From positions 1 to 51,411 of the IMG/VR virus record IMGVR_UViG_3300025010_000082: a stretch of 51,411 nt of DNA; one strand, 5' to 3'. Of this stretch, positions 24,540 through 38,107 are shown in pieces. The stretch's first letter is position 1. Every line of letters begins with the position of its first letter. This stretch comes from a virus. The position numbers and the translations under genes were made by a program. Below the pieces are notes generated by a model. The model did no database searches and was not told where the DNA came from. It saw nothing but the letters and a program-made list of their open reading frames with translations.

Positions 24540-24737
24540 TCAATTTTGGATTGTTAAACCAAGAATATCAACATATATTTCGACTTCTCCATATCTTGGT
24601 TTATCGATTTGATCGTCATAAAAAACAGGAGTGCGGATATCGATATAATCAATTTCAATATCCTTTAGGCTAAGTCCTTTGAGGTGAGCATCAACCTGAT
24701 CTTTAAACTTATTCCAAGTCATTTTATATCTGCTCAT
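24540..24737 (-). CDS. Hypothetical small protein
   Basis: The 65-residue protein starts at ATG 24737, overlapping the Mre11-like stop, after GAGGGG. It is predicted alpha/beta (KDIEIDYIDIRTPVFY then EVEIYVDILGL). The function is unknown. Confidence 0.45.
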   Translation of the reverse strand: MSRYKMTWNKFKDQVDAHLKGLSLKDIEIDYIDIRTPVFYDDQIDKPRYGEVEIYVDILGLTIQN

Positions 24738-26152
24738 TTCAACCCCTCATAATAACTCCATACCTTATCCCGGACCCCTTGGGTTATCAGGCCCTCACTG
24801 ACCGCCGCCTCCAGGTTATCATGGAAGTTAATCCCGGATACCACCTGCTCACCAAGTTTCTCCACAAAAGCATCCAGGCGGTTTTCCTTGGCCTTCTTGA
24901 TATCGATATAATCCCGATTGATAACCCCTTCCTCAATCGGCACATAAACCCTTTTGATTGTATTGGTATCTGCAAACCACAAAAAGACGCTGGGTTTAAA
25001 ATCAATCTGGTCGGCATCATTCCGCATCAAAGACCCGGGATTGACAAGAACTCGCCCATTCTCTTCCCGGGTAAAGGTTTGGTGGTTGTGCCCGCAGACG
25101 ATCAGATCAAAGTCCGGCAGCAGATCCATTACTTCCTTGGCGGAATAACCGACACAGCCGGGGAATGGTTCGAACTCTTCGTAAACCATGGCGTGAACGA
25201 GTGCGATATTTTTTACTCCGTCATCAAATTTCCATTTAGTCGCCTCTATTTTATGCCCCCAACCATAACCGTTTACAATTATTTTTTCTTTTTCTAACAG
25301 AAGCGGTTCATCTTCATAAGCCCGGGTTATAGTTCCAGCAGATTCAAGTACGCTCATCGCGCTTCCTGAATAATTTTCTAAAGACTTGCCAGGAAGGTCG
25401 TGATTTCCGCAAATCGTAAACATCCTGTTCGGTAAACTTGACATGGCCCAAACTAACAAGGAATGACTTGGATTTGATTTATATTTTTTATCAAATAAAT
25501 CCCCGGCATCAAATACCGGGCAGTTATGAAATATTTGTAACTCCTTTAACCATTCTAATTTTTTTGAAAAAGCAAGATTATAGTCATCGGTTCGACAAAG
25601 TGGCGAGAAGGAACGTAGTTCAATATCAGCCGTTAAAATTGCAGTAACTTTTCTTCGTTGTCTACCATAATTACGTTTTCCGTGATCAGGATCGAATTTC
25701 CTATGAAATTTTATATGTTCTTCTTGATTTGCAAAAAGGATTAGATTTTCTGGACGATCATCGTCATGAATTTTATTTCTATGATGTATTACTTCTTCTT
25801 CGAGAAGTTCTCTTCCTATTTCTTTTTCCATGACTACACGACATCGGCGGCGATAGCGCTCTCCGGTTTTTATTTTTACATAAACATATCCGCCATCATC
25901 GTACCATTTTCCGCCATTCCATCTATAGTGATTTTCTCCTTCCCGGGCGTGGTTAAATGCGATTAACCGTTCTCGCATTTCTGAATTTCTCGAATTATGA
26001 CCAAGGATAAATTTATTCCAACATCCTTTTTTTCTTTTTTTAACAGAAGACAACTCGACTTCTTGCCCGCATCCACAAGAACATTTTGGTGGAAGCTCAA
26101 TATCGGCAGTCAGGATGGCGTCGGCTTTTTTGGGTTGGTTGCTTCGTCTCAT
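24734..26152 (-). CDS. Mre11/SbcD-like nuclease with HNH insertion
   Basis: The 472-residue ORF contains a metallophosphoesterase: DAGDLFDKK, CGNHDLPG, LVHAMV and CGHNHQTF match the G-D-x-x-D, G-N-H-D and G-H-x-H motifs of Mre11/SbcD nucleases. The first motif is TADIEL, with Glu where Asp-x-His is usual. About 150 residues (21-170) form an inserted HNH homing-endonuclease domain with a zinc finger (CSCGCG), the EVIHHRNKIHDDDRPENLILF core and E-H-I-K-F-H. The nonapeptide AILTADIEL occurs before and after the insert. The enzyme should work with the split Rad50-like pair in end resection. Confidence 0.8.
   Translation of the reverse strand: MRRSNQPKKADAILTADIELPPKCSCGCGQEVELSSVKKRKKGCWNKFILGHNSRNSEMRERLIAFNHAREGENHYRWNGGKWYDDGGYVYVKIKTGERYRRRCRVVMEKEIGRELLEEEVIHHRNKIHDDDRPENLILFANQEEHIKFHRKFDPDHGKRNYGRQRRKVTAILTADIELRSFSPLCRTDDYNLAFSKKLEWLKELQIFHNCPVFDAGDLFDKKYKSNPSHSLLVWAMSSLPNRMFTICGNHDLPGKSLENYSGSAMSVLESAGTITRAYEDEPLLLEKEKIIVNGYGWGHKIEATKWKFDDGVKNIALVHAMVYEEFEPFPGCVGYSAKEVMDLLPDFDLIVCGHNHQTFTREENGRVLVNPGSLMRNDADQIDFKPSVFLWFADTNTIKRVYVPIEEGVINRDYIDIKKAKENRLDAFVEKLGEQVVSGINFHDNLEAAVSEGLITQGVRDKVWSYYEGLK
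25616..25642 (-). repeat. Second, recoded copy of nine codons
   Basis: This codes for AILTADIEL, identical in protein to 26093-26119 but using different codons for seven of the nine residues. It rebuilds the first strand of the nuclease domain downstream of the inserted HNH domain. Confidence 0.8.
25643..26092 (-). mobile_element. In-frame HNH homing-endonuclease insertion
   Basis: The insert encodes 150 residues of a typical HNH_3-type homing endonuclease, in frame with the host gene and without a start codon of its own. There are no splice-type residues at the ends (no Cys/Ser at the start, no His-Asn at the end), so it is not an intein. The open frame and lack of intron structure argue against an intron. 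The fused protein should keep a complete first strand, because that strand is duplicated after the insert. Confidence 0.75.
26093..26119 (-). repeat. First copy of nine codons flanking the HNH insert
   Basis: This encodes AILTADIEL at the N-terminal side of the HNH insertion. The second copy at 25616-25642 encodes the same nine residues but differs at 8 of 27 bases, all synonymous. Peptide identity with nucleotide divergence suggests recoding of the endonuclease target. Confidence 0.8.
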
Positions 26153-26292
26153 TGTATTGGCTCAATTGTAACTTCATAACCAATTTCTTCAAGCGCCTTT
26201 TTGATTCTTTGGGCCTCTTCCAAAGAAAGACACCGACGATTTATATATCGAAAAATTGGATGATTGCCTTTTACAAGGTATAAATATTTCAT
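26149..26292 (-). CDS. Very short protein coupled to the Mre11/Rad50 genes
   Basis: The 47-residue ORF starts at ATG 26292, overlapping the Rad50-like N-half stop, and ends in an ATGA overlap with the Mre11-like start at 26152. The product (KYLYLVKGNHPIFRYINRRCLSLEEAQ ...) has a beta-hairpin followed by a helix. Both ends are coupled to real genes, so it is very likely translated. The function is unknown. Confidence 0.6.
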   Translation of the reverse strand: MKYLYLVKGNHPIFRYINRRCLSLEEAQRIKKALEEIGYEVTIEPIQ

Positions 26293-27323
26293 AATCCCCT
26301 TCCACACTCACTACAGATATTTGGAATCTTTGCCTGCAGGTCTTTTAATTCATCCTCGACCTCAGCAATCTCTTTCCCTATTATACTAAAATCCGACAAT
26401 AATCTTTTCAGTTTTTTTACTCTGGCTGAAGATAATTCCAAGACCGCTGTACTGACCCTGATCTTTTCAAATCGACCCTCCACCCCCTCGAAGTTTTCCG
26501 CCGCTTCTTTCCTTTTTATAGCAGAATCTAAAGTCAGGATTCTATTTAACCTCGCAATCCGCGATTCCGCAGCCTGTACCGCCTGTAATTTCGCTTTTAA
26601 ACCCTCAAGCGTAGATTCGGCCGCAAGCAACCCCTCCTTGCTTATAATCGCATCCTCAAGCGTTTTTAAACTATCCCGCAATTTTTTCAGATTTTGAATC
26701 CTGGAACCGGAGAATATTTGCAGTTTTTGCATGGCATCAATTTGGCCGACCCGCTCCTCCATATCATCAATATCGACAAACTCTTCCAATTCCTTTTCCT
26801 TGGCTTCCGCCGTTGCCTTTTCCGCTTTCCATAATTTATCAAGTCGGTTTACATCTTCCTTGGCATTGGAGAGGGTCTGTTCAATTTCATCCAGGCCGGC
26901 AATCCGATTGAGTATACGGCCCCGCTCCCCGGAAGTTTCGAACATAAGGAAGGCTCGTTCAATCTGGGTCTGCAAATTGACATCATCAAGATCCAACAAG
27001 GCGGCAATATTGCCGGCGACTGAGGTGCCGGCATTGATTGGCTTCTCGTCGTTGAGTATATAGCTGTTTTCTGACTTATCCCGGACCCTCTTGAGGATAA
27101 AGCCGGGATTAATAAACTCACCAGTAACGGCTGTTGTACCATCCCAGTACAGGGGTCTCATCCACTCGCCACCGGGATTATTCTGGGTCAGCCATTTGTA
27201 GGCACGGAAAGATCCAGATTTACCCCGGTCGGTTTCCCCGACAAAAACATTCAGGCCTGGGGAGAATTCAAAAAAGGTATCTTTGTGGGATTCAAGATTT
27301 TCTATGCGGAGGGATTTGATCAT
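26289..27323 (-). CDS. Rad50/SbcC-like ATPase, N-terminal half ending at the zinc hook
   Basis: The 344 residues start MIKSLRIENLESHKDTFFEF, typical of SMC/Rad50 heads. Walker A is GETDRGKS (residues 29-36). Residues about 140-330 are a long coiled coil, and the protein ends CSECGRGL, a C-x2-C at 337-340 that matches the Rad50 zinc hook. The second arm and the Walker B half are absent and encoded at 23122-23766. The gene is therefore split exactly at the hook. Dimerisation through the hook and pairing with the other half are expected. Confidence 0.8.
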   Translation of the reverse strand: MIKSLRIENLESHKDTFFEFSPGLNVFVGETDRGKSGSFRAYKWLTQNNPGGEWMRPLYWDGTTAVTGEFINPGFILKRVRDKSENSYILNDEKPINAGTSVAGNIAALLDLDDVNLQTQIERAFLMFETSGERGRILNRIAGLDEIEQTLSNAKEDVNRLDKLWKAEKATAEAKEKELEEFVDIDDMEERVGQIDAMQKLQIFSGSRIQNLKKLRDSLKTLEDAIISKEGLLAAESTLEGLKAKLQAVQAAESRIARLNRILTLDSAIKRKEAAENFEGVEGRFEKIRVSTAVLELSSARVKKLKRLLSDFSIIGKEIAEVEDELKDLQAKIPNICSECGRGL

Positions 27324-34642: not shown

Positions 34643-37600
34643 TCAAAAAATAAATAGTGATTTAAACTTCTTCAGATCATCCCTTGTTGTTACATAATCA
34701 GGATCAAATGCATTTATTTGGGTCAGGATTGCAGTTACGTTTTTATTCACTCCCGGAATCTTCTCACTTGGAGTCGATGAGAAAAAACCTTTCCGCTGCT
34801 TCTCCCCGTGTTTGGCTGCAGCAATCTTTTCCGCTACTATTTCCCCGACGCCATTAATGGAGATGAAGGGCGCATACAAATTCCCCTTTTTATCGCAATT
34901 CCATTTGACCGCATCTGAAATACCAATCTTTGGTAAATTGATTTTCAAACCAAGCCGCCTGGCTTCCCTGATATATTCAATGTTTTTTGTCTTATCACCA
35001 AGGGTCAGACAGGAGGCAAGAAATTCATTGGGAAAGTATATTTTGCTATACATATCCCAATAAGTTATCATGGAATATTCTACAGAATGACTATTATGGG
35101 TTATCAAGCCATTTGATAACATGAAATTATGATATACCGGCATTTCAATGTCGTATGTTTCGAGGTATCCAACTTCTTCAATTGAAACCAGTGTCTTTGT
35201 AGTTTGAACTCTGCCTTTTGACCATCTCTTTTCTCTGCCGTTTGCATAATGTTCTTTTTTGTGGCATCCAGGGCAAAGCCAAGTTAACCAGTATGGGAAT
35301 TTATTTCCACCATCTAAATCTTTATGATGAACTTCCATTCTTTCGTGATATTTCCCACAGCATTCGCATGGACTTGCAGACATCAATTCTTTATATTCAT
35401 TTAATGCTTTTGTTTTCCCGTTTTTATAAGATGGGTTCCCTTCTCCTACATGAAAACCTTTTTGCGCTTTTGGATATTTCTTTCCTTTATTTGTTTCATT
35501 ACTTGGTTCAGGTTTATATTTCGGCAGTTCCAGCGCGCCAAATATCGAACCGATAATTGCTTTTTTAATTCTTTTCCATTCTCCATCGATAATAAATTTG
35601 TGGCTTCTGGTACACTCAACAAAAGAACCGTCATCGAAAGTATACTTATAGCAAAACTTAATTCCATTTTTGATAACTCTCAGTGATTTTTGCGGAACCC
35701 CTTTAACTCCATCAAAACTTATTAAATTTGGTTTGAGGCCTTTATTCCTTACTCCCTTTTTTGGATTTGACTCATACATATAATAAAGTTCCGCAATGGT
35801 CATGCTTGATTTTCTATTTTGATTTCCCCCAGTCAGTTGAATCAAAGTATTTCCAGCCAAGCACATATTAAACCCGTAACCACCAAACTTTGACATCATA
35901 TCCCAGATTTGAATGGCTTTCTTTTCTGTGATTGTTCCTTGATTTTTACAGCCCTGCAGAAACTCATCTTTATATTTATCAAAAGCGGCATGGCCCATAC
36001 TCTTGCCCATGACCTTCCTGATCTTGTTGCAGGTTGACATAGGGATGCCGGCCAATTGATTAACCGCCTTCATAACCTGCTCCTGATAAACTATTACACC
36101 GAATGTTTCCTCAGTCAGTTTATCAAAAATAGGATGGATCTTTTCGACCTTGGCTTTGCCTCGTTTCCTCTTGGAATATAGTTCGGTCATCCCGGATTGC
36201 ATAGGGCCAGGACGCCACAGGGCCGTTACCGCATAGAGCATTTGGAAGTTTTCGACCCCAAGTTCCTTGCAATAATTGGTCAGCCCGCTTGAACCAATTT
36301 GAAAAGCCCCGACCGTATTACCCTCGGATATTTCAGCAAAGACTTTCGGATCATCAAAGGCAATTTTTTTGTAGTTGATATCTATCCCATGGTTCTGCTT
36401 TACCATCCGCCGGCATTCATTCAGGATGGTCAGGGCGGAGAGGCCAAGGATATCTAGTTTCATCAACCCGCAATACTCTGCATTCCGCATATCCCAATTG
36501 GCCACAATGGTACCGGCCCGGGTAACAAGATTGCAGTTGTGGCCTTCCCGGAGATCCTTTTCGGAAATACAGACCCCAGCCGCGTGCTGGCCATGCCCCC
36601 TGATCTGTCCTTCGATAGATTGGGCCACCTCAATCACTTCCGGATATTTCTGACCGAATCTCCGGCACTCCGGAACCTCATTGAAAGACTTCTCGATCTC
36701 CTGGCCTACTTCAGCCTCTACCATCGCTTTGGCAGCAAAGTCGACCTCTGATAAGGGGATATCGAAAACGCGGCTTACATCACGAAGTACGCCCTTTCCT
36801 TTCATGGTCAGGAAATTGGAAAGGCCAACTACATTATACTCACCATATTTATCAGAAAGATATTTACGAACATCATCTCTCCGGATATCCTCAAAATCCA
36901 TATCGATATCCGGTAAATCTTTCCGCTCTTCCGAGACAAACCGAAAAAACTCTGTACCATAGATGAGAGGGTCGCAATCAGTGATATATAAAAGGTAAGC
37001 AACAAGACACCCGCCTGCCGAACCACGACCAGGCCCGGTCATTACATTATTCTTTTGGCACCATTGGATAAGATCCCAGACAATGAGAAAGTAGCGAACG
37101 AACTTCTTGGAGATGATCAGTTTCATTTCCATTTCGATTCGTTCTTTGTATGGTTTCAATTCCTCAAAAGTTCGCCCCCTGATTCTCCTTTTCAATCCTT
37201 TATAAACCATGTTCTCAAGAAACAATAATTCAGATTCATCATTAAACGATTTCTTGATACTTGGCAGATATACTTCTTGTTGCTCAATCCGGAAGTTTTC
37301 ACAAATCCTGGCGACCTTGCCGGTCATCCTGATTGCCTTCCGGATCTCATGGTCAGTTAAAACCCCTTGATCCTGGAAAGCCGCAACCATTTCTTCCTCT
37401 GAACGGAGAAAGAGGCCGGTGCAATTGAATTTCCATCTATTCGGATCATTCCAGGTTCTTTTCGATTGGATTGCCAGGAGTATTTCTTGATGCTTGGTTG
37501 CTTCGTTGGTCGGGTAATGAGCATCATTGGTGGCGACGATTTGAATCCCGAGTTCCTTGGATATCTTCAGGGCCAGTTTATTTACCTTTATCTGCTCGGG

Positions 37601-38107
37601 GATATCGTGTGGCATGACCTCCAGGAAAACCCGATCCTTTCCAAGCGCCTCAAAATAATTCTTGATCATCCGTTTATCTGTATCAAGAAGCAGATAAGAC
37701 ATGGAACAGGCCGAAAGGATTACCAGGCCATCAATATGTTTCAGGAGGGTTTTATGATCGATCCTAGGCCGGTGATAATACCCTTCGATATTGGCAATGG
37801 TCAGGAGCTGCAGAAGATTTCGCCAGCCAGTTTGATTCTCGACAAGTAGAGTAATATGATATCGAGTTTCACCTTTTTGTTTGATAGTCATATCCGGAAC
37901 GAGATACATCTCTGCTCCGATAATTGGCTTTATGCCGGCTTCAAGACATTGTTTTTGATGTTCTATTGCTCCGTCAATATTGCTGTGATTGCTGAGGGCC
38001 AAGGCGGTTTGTCCGAGTTCTTTGGCCAGGGCCGCATATTGCTTAGAAGTCCCGACTCCATCAAGGACGGAGTATTCATTATGGAGATGGAGGTGGCAAA
38101 AACTCAT
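34643..38107 (-). CDS. dnaE: DNA polymerase III alpha subunit with intein
   Basis: The 1154-residue precursor has an N-terminal PHP domain (CHLHLHNEYSVLDG at residue 4), the polymerase core with GPGRGSAGG and the catalytic DLPDIDMDF, the finger and palm motifs WRPGPMQSGM and FGVIVYQEQVM, and a short C-terminus. Residues 749-1005 are an intein inserted between GYGFNM and SHSVEYS, the conserved G-Y-G-F-N-K-S-H-A loop. The mature enzyme would be about 897 residues, shorter than bacterial DnaE because the C-terminal accessory domains are missing. It pairs with the clamp, clamp loader and DnaB-like helicase of this window. Confidence 0.93.
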   Translation of the reverse strand: MSFCHLHLHNEYSVLDGVGTSKQYAALAKELGQTALALSNHSNIDGAIEHQKQCLEAGIKPIIGAEMYLVPDMTIKQKGETRYHITLLVENQTGWRNLLQLLTIANIEGYYHRPRIDHKTLLKHIDGLVILSACSMSYLLLDTDKRMIKNYFEALGKDRVFLEVMPHDIPEQIKVNKLALKISKELGIQIVATNDAHYPTNEATKHQEILLAIQSKRTWNDPNRWKFNCTGLFLRSEEEMVAAFQDQGVLTDHEIRKAIRMTGKVARICENFRIEQQEVYLPSIKKSFNDESELLFLENMVYKGLKRRIRGRTFEELKPYKERIEMEMKLIISKKFVRYFLIVWDLIQWCQKNNVMTGPGRGSAGGCLVAYLLYITDCDPLIYGTEFFRFVSEERKDLPDIDMDFEDIRRDDVRKYLSDKYGEYNVVGLSNFLTMKGKGVLRDVSRVFDIPLSEVDFAAKAMVEAEVGQEIEKSFNEVPECRRFGQKYPEVIEVAQSIEGQIRGHGQHAAGVCISEKDLREGHNCNLVTRAGTIVANWDMRNAEYCGLMKLDILGLSALTILNECRRMVKQNHGIDINYKKIAFDDPKVFAEISEGNTVGAFQIGSSGLTNYCKELGVENFQMLYAVTALWRPGPMQSGMTELYSKRKRGKAKVEKIHPIFDKLTEETFGVIVYQEQVMKAVNQLAGIPMSTCNKIRKVMGKSMGHAAFDKYKDEFLQGCKNQGTITEKKAIQIWDMMSKFGGYGFNMCLAGNTLIQLTGGNQNRKSSMTIAELYYMYESNPKKGVRNKGLKPNLISFDGVKGVPQKSLRVIKNGIKFCYKYTFDDGSFVECTRSHKFIIDGEWKRIKKAIIGSIFGALELPKYKPEPSNETNKGKKYPKAQKGFHVGEGNPSYKNGKTKALNEYKELMSASPCECCGKYHERMEVHHKDLDGGNKFPYWLTWLCPGCHKKEHYANGREKRWSKGRVQTTKTLVSIEEVGYLETYDIEMPVYHNFMLSNGLITHNSHSVEYSMITYWDMYSKIYFPNEFLASCLTLGDKTKNIEYIREARRLGLKINLPKIGISDAVKWNCDKKGNLYAPFISINGVGEIVAEKIAAAKHGEKQRKGFFSSTPSEKIPGVNKNVTAILTQINAFDPDYVTTRDDLKKFKSLFIF
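35093..35863 (-). mobile_element. Intein with HNH endonuclease domain
   Basis: The 257-residue intein starts with Cys (CLAGNTLI, block A), contains CTRSHKF (block B), and ends YHNFMLSNGLITHN followed by Ser (+1). The centre holds an HNH-type domain (CECCGKYHERMEVHHKD, then WLCPGCHKKEH). All catalytic splice residues are present, so it should splice. HNH in place of LAGLIDADG is less common but known in phage inteins. Confidence 0.9.

Follow-up and report, generated by a model that had tools for sequence, protein, structure and literature searches.

The window analysed here (the whole stretch of 51,411 nucleotides of viral DNA, IMG/VR record IMGVR_UViG_3300025010_000082) carries on its minus strand a stop-free open reading frame of 472 codons (24734-26152) whose translation reads MRRSNQPKKADAILTADIEL, then an HNH module, then ..RRKVTAILTADIELRSFSPL... 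This frame is predicted to encode a chimeric protein of 472 aa, composed of a native stub, the HNH module and a complete Mre11/SbcD-like phosphoesterase. The SbcC/Rad50-like partner gene that lies upstream (AAA_23; 26289-27323, minus strand) is unaffected. The interval that separates the SbcC-like gene from mre11 (26149-26307, minus strand) differs by lineage, with a 52-aa ORF in the window and an unrelated 57-aa ORF in the relative L004.

The nonapeptide AILTADIEL is found twice in this frame, at 26093-26119 and at 25616-25642, on either side of the HNH module. The DNA of the upstream copy (GCCATCCTGACTGCCGATATTGAGCTT, 26119-26093) and that of the downstream copy (GCAATTTTAACGGCTGATATTGAACTA, 25642-25616) differ at 8 of 27 bases, all of them synonymous, which confirms what the initial annotation had reported of the flanking repeat. 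In 2000 residue shuffles of the 472-aa protein the longest exact repeat was 6 residues, never 9. Between the two copies, Pfam places HNH_3 (PF13392, E 7.7e-6, above the cut-off) at residues 105-144, and a Metallophos domain lies downstream of the second copy. The nine residues agree between the copies because AILTADIEL corresponds to the conserved motif I of the phosphoesterase, which many clade members have in identical form. No ATG, GTG or TTG occurs in frame from codon 108 to the second copy, so that a separate translation start for the Mre11 part is ruled out and, with the usual start codons, only the fusion can be translated.

Comparison with uninserted relatives

We compared the locus with five IMG/VR contigs (L001-L005) whose version of this gene cluster is about 90% identical to the window in DNA. 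Their mre11 gene starts MRRSNQPKKADAILTADIELRAFQPTCRTDD (NHPKK in L001 and L003), opening with MRRSNQPKKADAILTADIEL and running directly into the phosphoesterase, with a single AILTADIEL and no insert. The window matches them over two stretches, with no match between. One, at 26097-26152 (92-96% DNA identity), lies in the native 5′ remnant of 20 codons (26093-26152, minus strand), which holds the start codon and the upstream AILTADIEL; the other, at 24732-25214 (89-92%), covers the native 3′ part of mre11 (24734-25214, minus strand). The native sequence breaks off after codon 18-20 and is followed in frame by the HNH module; the native sequence resumes at about 25214, and the whole forms one open frame. 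The entire block that we read as foreign (25215-26096, minus strand; 882 bp) replaces about 401 bp of the relatives (5036-5436 in L002).

The HNH module is present in the window and absent at the same site in L001-L005. The initial annotation had suggested comparing relatives that lack the insert with the upstream copy, and had named uninserted relatives with two copies as evidence against its model; L001-L005 match the upstream copy and have one AILTADIEL, so that this objection does not arise. On this sequence comparison, the upstream copy is the native one. Among the 80 loci of the wider mre11 family, none has two AILTADIEL copies or an N-terminal HNH fusion.

Extent and origin of the diverged segment

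The downstream AILTADIEL is only the opening portion of a longer diverged stretch after the HNH module, about 435 bp (about 145 codons) from the 5′ half of an mre11. This foreign part (25215-25651, minus strand; residues 168-312) starts with RKVT, includes the second AILTADIEL and shows 55% protein identity and 57% DNA identity to the close relatives, with the DNA identity rising to about 90% at 25214. A changepoint analysis against three relatives placed its right end at 25214 (2-lnL range 25192-25219, lnL gain 68-84), with an identity of 0.56-0.58 before this point and of 0.89-0.92 after it.

At identical residues, codon agreement is 37-47% in the foreign half versus 70-80% in the native half. 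When the relatives are compared with distant clades, synonymous codons are equally saturated as in the foreign half, which points to foreign DNA and not to fast protein change. Such synonymous divergence, together with the sharp boundary, rules out faster evolution of the 5′ half as an alternative to exchange. Furthermore, the HNH has a GC3 of 23% and the foreign half one of 31%, compared with 56% in the native stub and 58% in the native 3′ half. Because they share this low GC3 and adjoin each other, the HNH and the half-gene look like one import that arrived together. In the tree, the mre11 3′ half groups with the close relatives, among L022/L023/L025 (99/95), and the 5′ half, which has no close relative, shows a branch length of 1.25 changes per column; an AU test, on the short 5′ half only, did not reject its grouping with the close relatives (p 0.50). 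The identity jump, the synonymous codons and the composition indicate that the 5′ half is foreign. The AILTADIEL repeat is the overlap of the native stub and the foreign half, rather than a designed patch.

The initial annotation had described a synonymously recoded duplicate of the target. What we found instead is about half a diverged gene, with non-synonymous changes beyond the nine residues (55% protein identity). Its broader idea, that the element brings its own recoded piece of the host gene and thereby keeps the nuclease, holds in that a diverged piece appears to have been imported and the phosphoesterase is complete; it fails in that this piece is not a nine-residue synonymous recoding.

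The predicted Mre11-like domain

In the AlphaFold model, the phosphoesterase (residues about 168-472) has a pLDDT mostly of about 95; strand 1 (residues 171-174) is built from the second AILTADIEL copy, and the first copy is disordered. The top Foldseek matches of the phosphoesterase are Mre11 and SbcD structures, and the calcineurin-like fold expected of Mre11/SbcD is found together with the phosphoesterase motifs GDLFD, GNHD, H320 and GHNH; at motif I, DIE replaces DxH. The model indicates that a complete Mre11-like domain is rebuilt behind the 20-residue stub, and the gene probably yields a single fusion protein in which the HNH forms the N-terminal part and the Mre11-like nuclease still works. 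Since the fusion keeps a nuclease that is predicted to work, the element would persist without a splicing device.

Asp-x-Glu at motif I (25616-25642), and not the usual Asp-x-His metal-binding pair, is a feature of a clade of this Mre11-like family (loci L022-L034, L046, L075, L078 and L088); the wider family has DLHLR.

The HNH module and its junctions

The HNH module (25652-26098, minus strand; about 148 codons) has a zinc-ribbon-like start, C-x-CGCG, and an HNH_3 core in a Pfam stretch at about 25721-25840, with the match to PF13392 above the cut-off identifying the HNH catalytic core. The motifs HH, RPENL and EHIKFH are intact, and HH, ENL and EH..H are kept in the alignment with relatives; the core reads RCRVV where most relatives have EHRLV. 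In the full AlphaFold model the HNH is poorly predicted; a model of the HNH by itself is confident for the catalytic part but not for the N-terminal one. Its top structural match (Foldseek) is the homing endonuclease I-HmuI (PDB 1u3e), a weak match (E 0.83) with a shared HNH_3-type core; I-HmuI, however, is intron-encoded, and there is no intron here.

Free-standing phage relatives of this HNH exist, and their initial Met aligns with Ile18 of the fusion (MTTIPAGLCQCGCG versus IELPPKCSCGCG), which puts the left join where the HNH begins, at eight bases that read GATATTGA. These bases (26097-26104, minus strand) are common to the native gene and the second copy, and it is here that the likeness to the relatives stops. 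On the right side of the HNH, RKVTAILTADIEL can be aligned to MKASAILTADIEL in L006, so that the donor mre11 probably began there. The start codons of both the HNH and the donor mre11 are missing.

We propose that the locus is a three-part chimera that arose by recombination with an unsampled donor phage, probably through HNH-driven homing with co-conversion, and that received an imported HNH and half a gene; from the sequence evidence above, we put the probability of this reading at about 60%. The donor would have carried an HNH homing-type gene directly ahead of, or already fused to, a diverged mre11. The HNH would have cut the recipient mre11 near its 5′ end, with the donor serving as repair template. 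On the right side, repair via mre11 homology would have co-converted about 435 bp, and the left side would have been joined at the short 8-base match at the HNH start. Loss of the recognition site by divergence is not needed for this reading, since the insertion alone would separate the site. Searches of viral contigs, phages and bacterial genomes with the HNH, the foreign half and the family profile found no donor with an HNH next to this mre11. The left junction was not found in any other viral contig, and the chimera is known from one contig. A stronger version, in which the HNH and a replacement 5′ half of mre11 travel as a fixed homing unit that invades mre11 by in-frame fusion, rebuilds the interrupted nuclease and makes a working HNH-Mre11 fusion without intron or intein, appears doubtful.

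Alternative explanations

The same chimera could have been produced by ordinary phage recombination at mre11, with the HNH as a passenger and not the driver. Phage genomes are mosaic, several other exchanged stretches are found in this region among the close relatives, and the RCRVV core, which differs from that of most relatives, leaves the activity of the HNH less than certain. Against this, the boundary coincides exactly with the start of the HNH, whose frame and core motifs are intact, and nuclease genes at exchange boundaries are an established pattern (PMC10448857). We regard a passenger HNH as possible, though unlikely. An assembly artefact that joined two phages would agree with a single contig and with a left junction absent from all other viral contigs searched; it is improbable, since this junction has only 8 bases common to the relatives, too few for the usual assembly join, the frame is kept at both junctions and the phosphoesterase motifs are all complete.

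Very improbable is the strict form of the initial model, a short, purposely recoded copy of the target that keeps the host protein and escapes the element's own nuclease. The nine-residue copies do differ at synonymous sites only, but the divergence extends over about 435 bp with 45% of the residues changed, and the nine residues are a motif identical across many relatives. We give even less credit to removal of the HNH block, whether as a self-splicing intron, as an intein or by ribosomal bypassing between the matching copies. A skip from copy to copy would yield MRRSNQPKKADAILTADIELRSFSP.., the exact uninserted form, but the block is in frame and fully coding. No group I or group II intron was matched in Rfam up to E 1 in 25100-26400 under lax thresholds. 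The ends of the block, EL/PPKCSC and RRKVT/AILT, have no Cys or Ser start and no His-Asn end as an intein would, and there is no intein model among the Pfam matches of the 472-aa protein; intein ends are visible, in contrast, in the DNA polymerase III alpha of the same contig, which contains a probable HNH intein. The HNH block far exceeds in length the stretches that ribosomes are known to bypass, which counts against bypassing.

Relation to known mobile elements

In fungal mitochondria, mobile ORFs import a foreign gene end, which takes the place of the native one, as described for atp6 of Allomyces macrogynus and for atp6, atp9, cox2 and nad3 of Glomus sp. (PMC3630166). The initial annotation had pointed to a similar logic in such endonuclease ORFs, a parallel that we found, with the phage case as its mirror image. 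As in Allomyces and Glomus, an endonuclease ORF interrupts a gene, a diverged foreign piece adjoining the nuclease restores it and a native remnant stays, in some of the fungal cases all in phase. In the fungal ORFs the foreign C-terminal end precedes the nuclease ORF, with the native 3′ end remaining as a leftover, an arrangement not found here, where the foreign N-terminal part follows the HNH and it is the native 5′ stub that remains and supplies the start codon. Furthermore, the fungal ORFs encode LAGLIDADG or GIY-YIG nucleases in a mitochondrion, whereas here an HNH of a phage is fused at the protein level.

Co-conversion of flanking sequence in phage homing and host genes split by mob genes have been described (PMC2988022). 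As with Seg and Mob, the free-standing homing endonucleases of T4-like phages known for co-conversion and marker exclusion, the nuclease lies next to or within an essential gene of replication or repair, and the donor flank is expected to come along (PMC2988022). Seg and Mob, however, are separate genes or split the host gene (mobE in nrdA, mobA in gene 60), whereas here the HNH is fused and the host protein is in one piece. Nuclease genes also mark boundaries of genetic exchange between phages (PMC10448857); the islands in question are large and nuclease-flanked, whereas here the nuclease marks one edge and the exchange lies within one gene. No description of an in-frame homing nuclease fusion of this layout in phages was found in the literature searched, the coverage of which was incomplete; this agrees with the initial annotation, which knew no phage case of this form, though co-conversion itself is known (PMC2988022).

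If homing with co-conversion is the correct reading, a selfish nuclease inhabits an essential gene without splicing by bringing a spare, diverged part of that gene. This spare-part logic is known in fungal mitochondria, and a phage case in mirror orientation would make it general. The host gene is a break-processing recombination nuclease whose kind (T4 gp46/gp47) may take part in homing (PMC2988022), so that keeping it functional would serve the element. The locus also illustrates that what looks like a short "recoded repeat" next to a nuclease may mark the edge of a far longer stretch of exchanged DNA.

Other free-standing HNH genes (PF01844; PF13392) are found elsewhere in the same cluster in L001 (2807-3454) and L002 (2717-3151), at points where the window has none. 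Such nearby HNH genes in the relatives favour the reading of the locus as a product of homing. In the window, the DNA polymerase III alpha gene (34643-38107, minus strand) contains a probable intein with its own HNH, which has a CLAGNTLI start, an LITHN-S end, a CECCGK..HHKD core and a weak match to PF14890.
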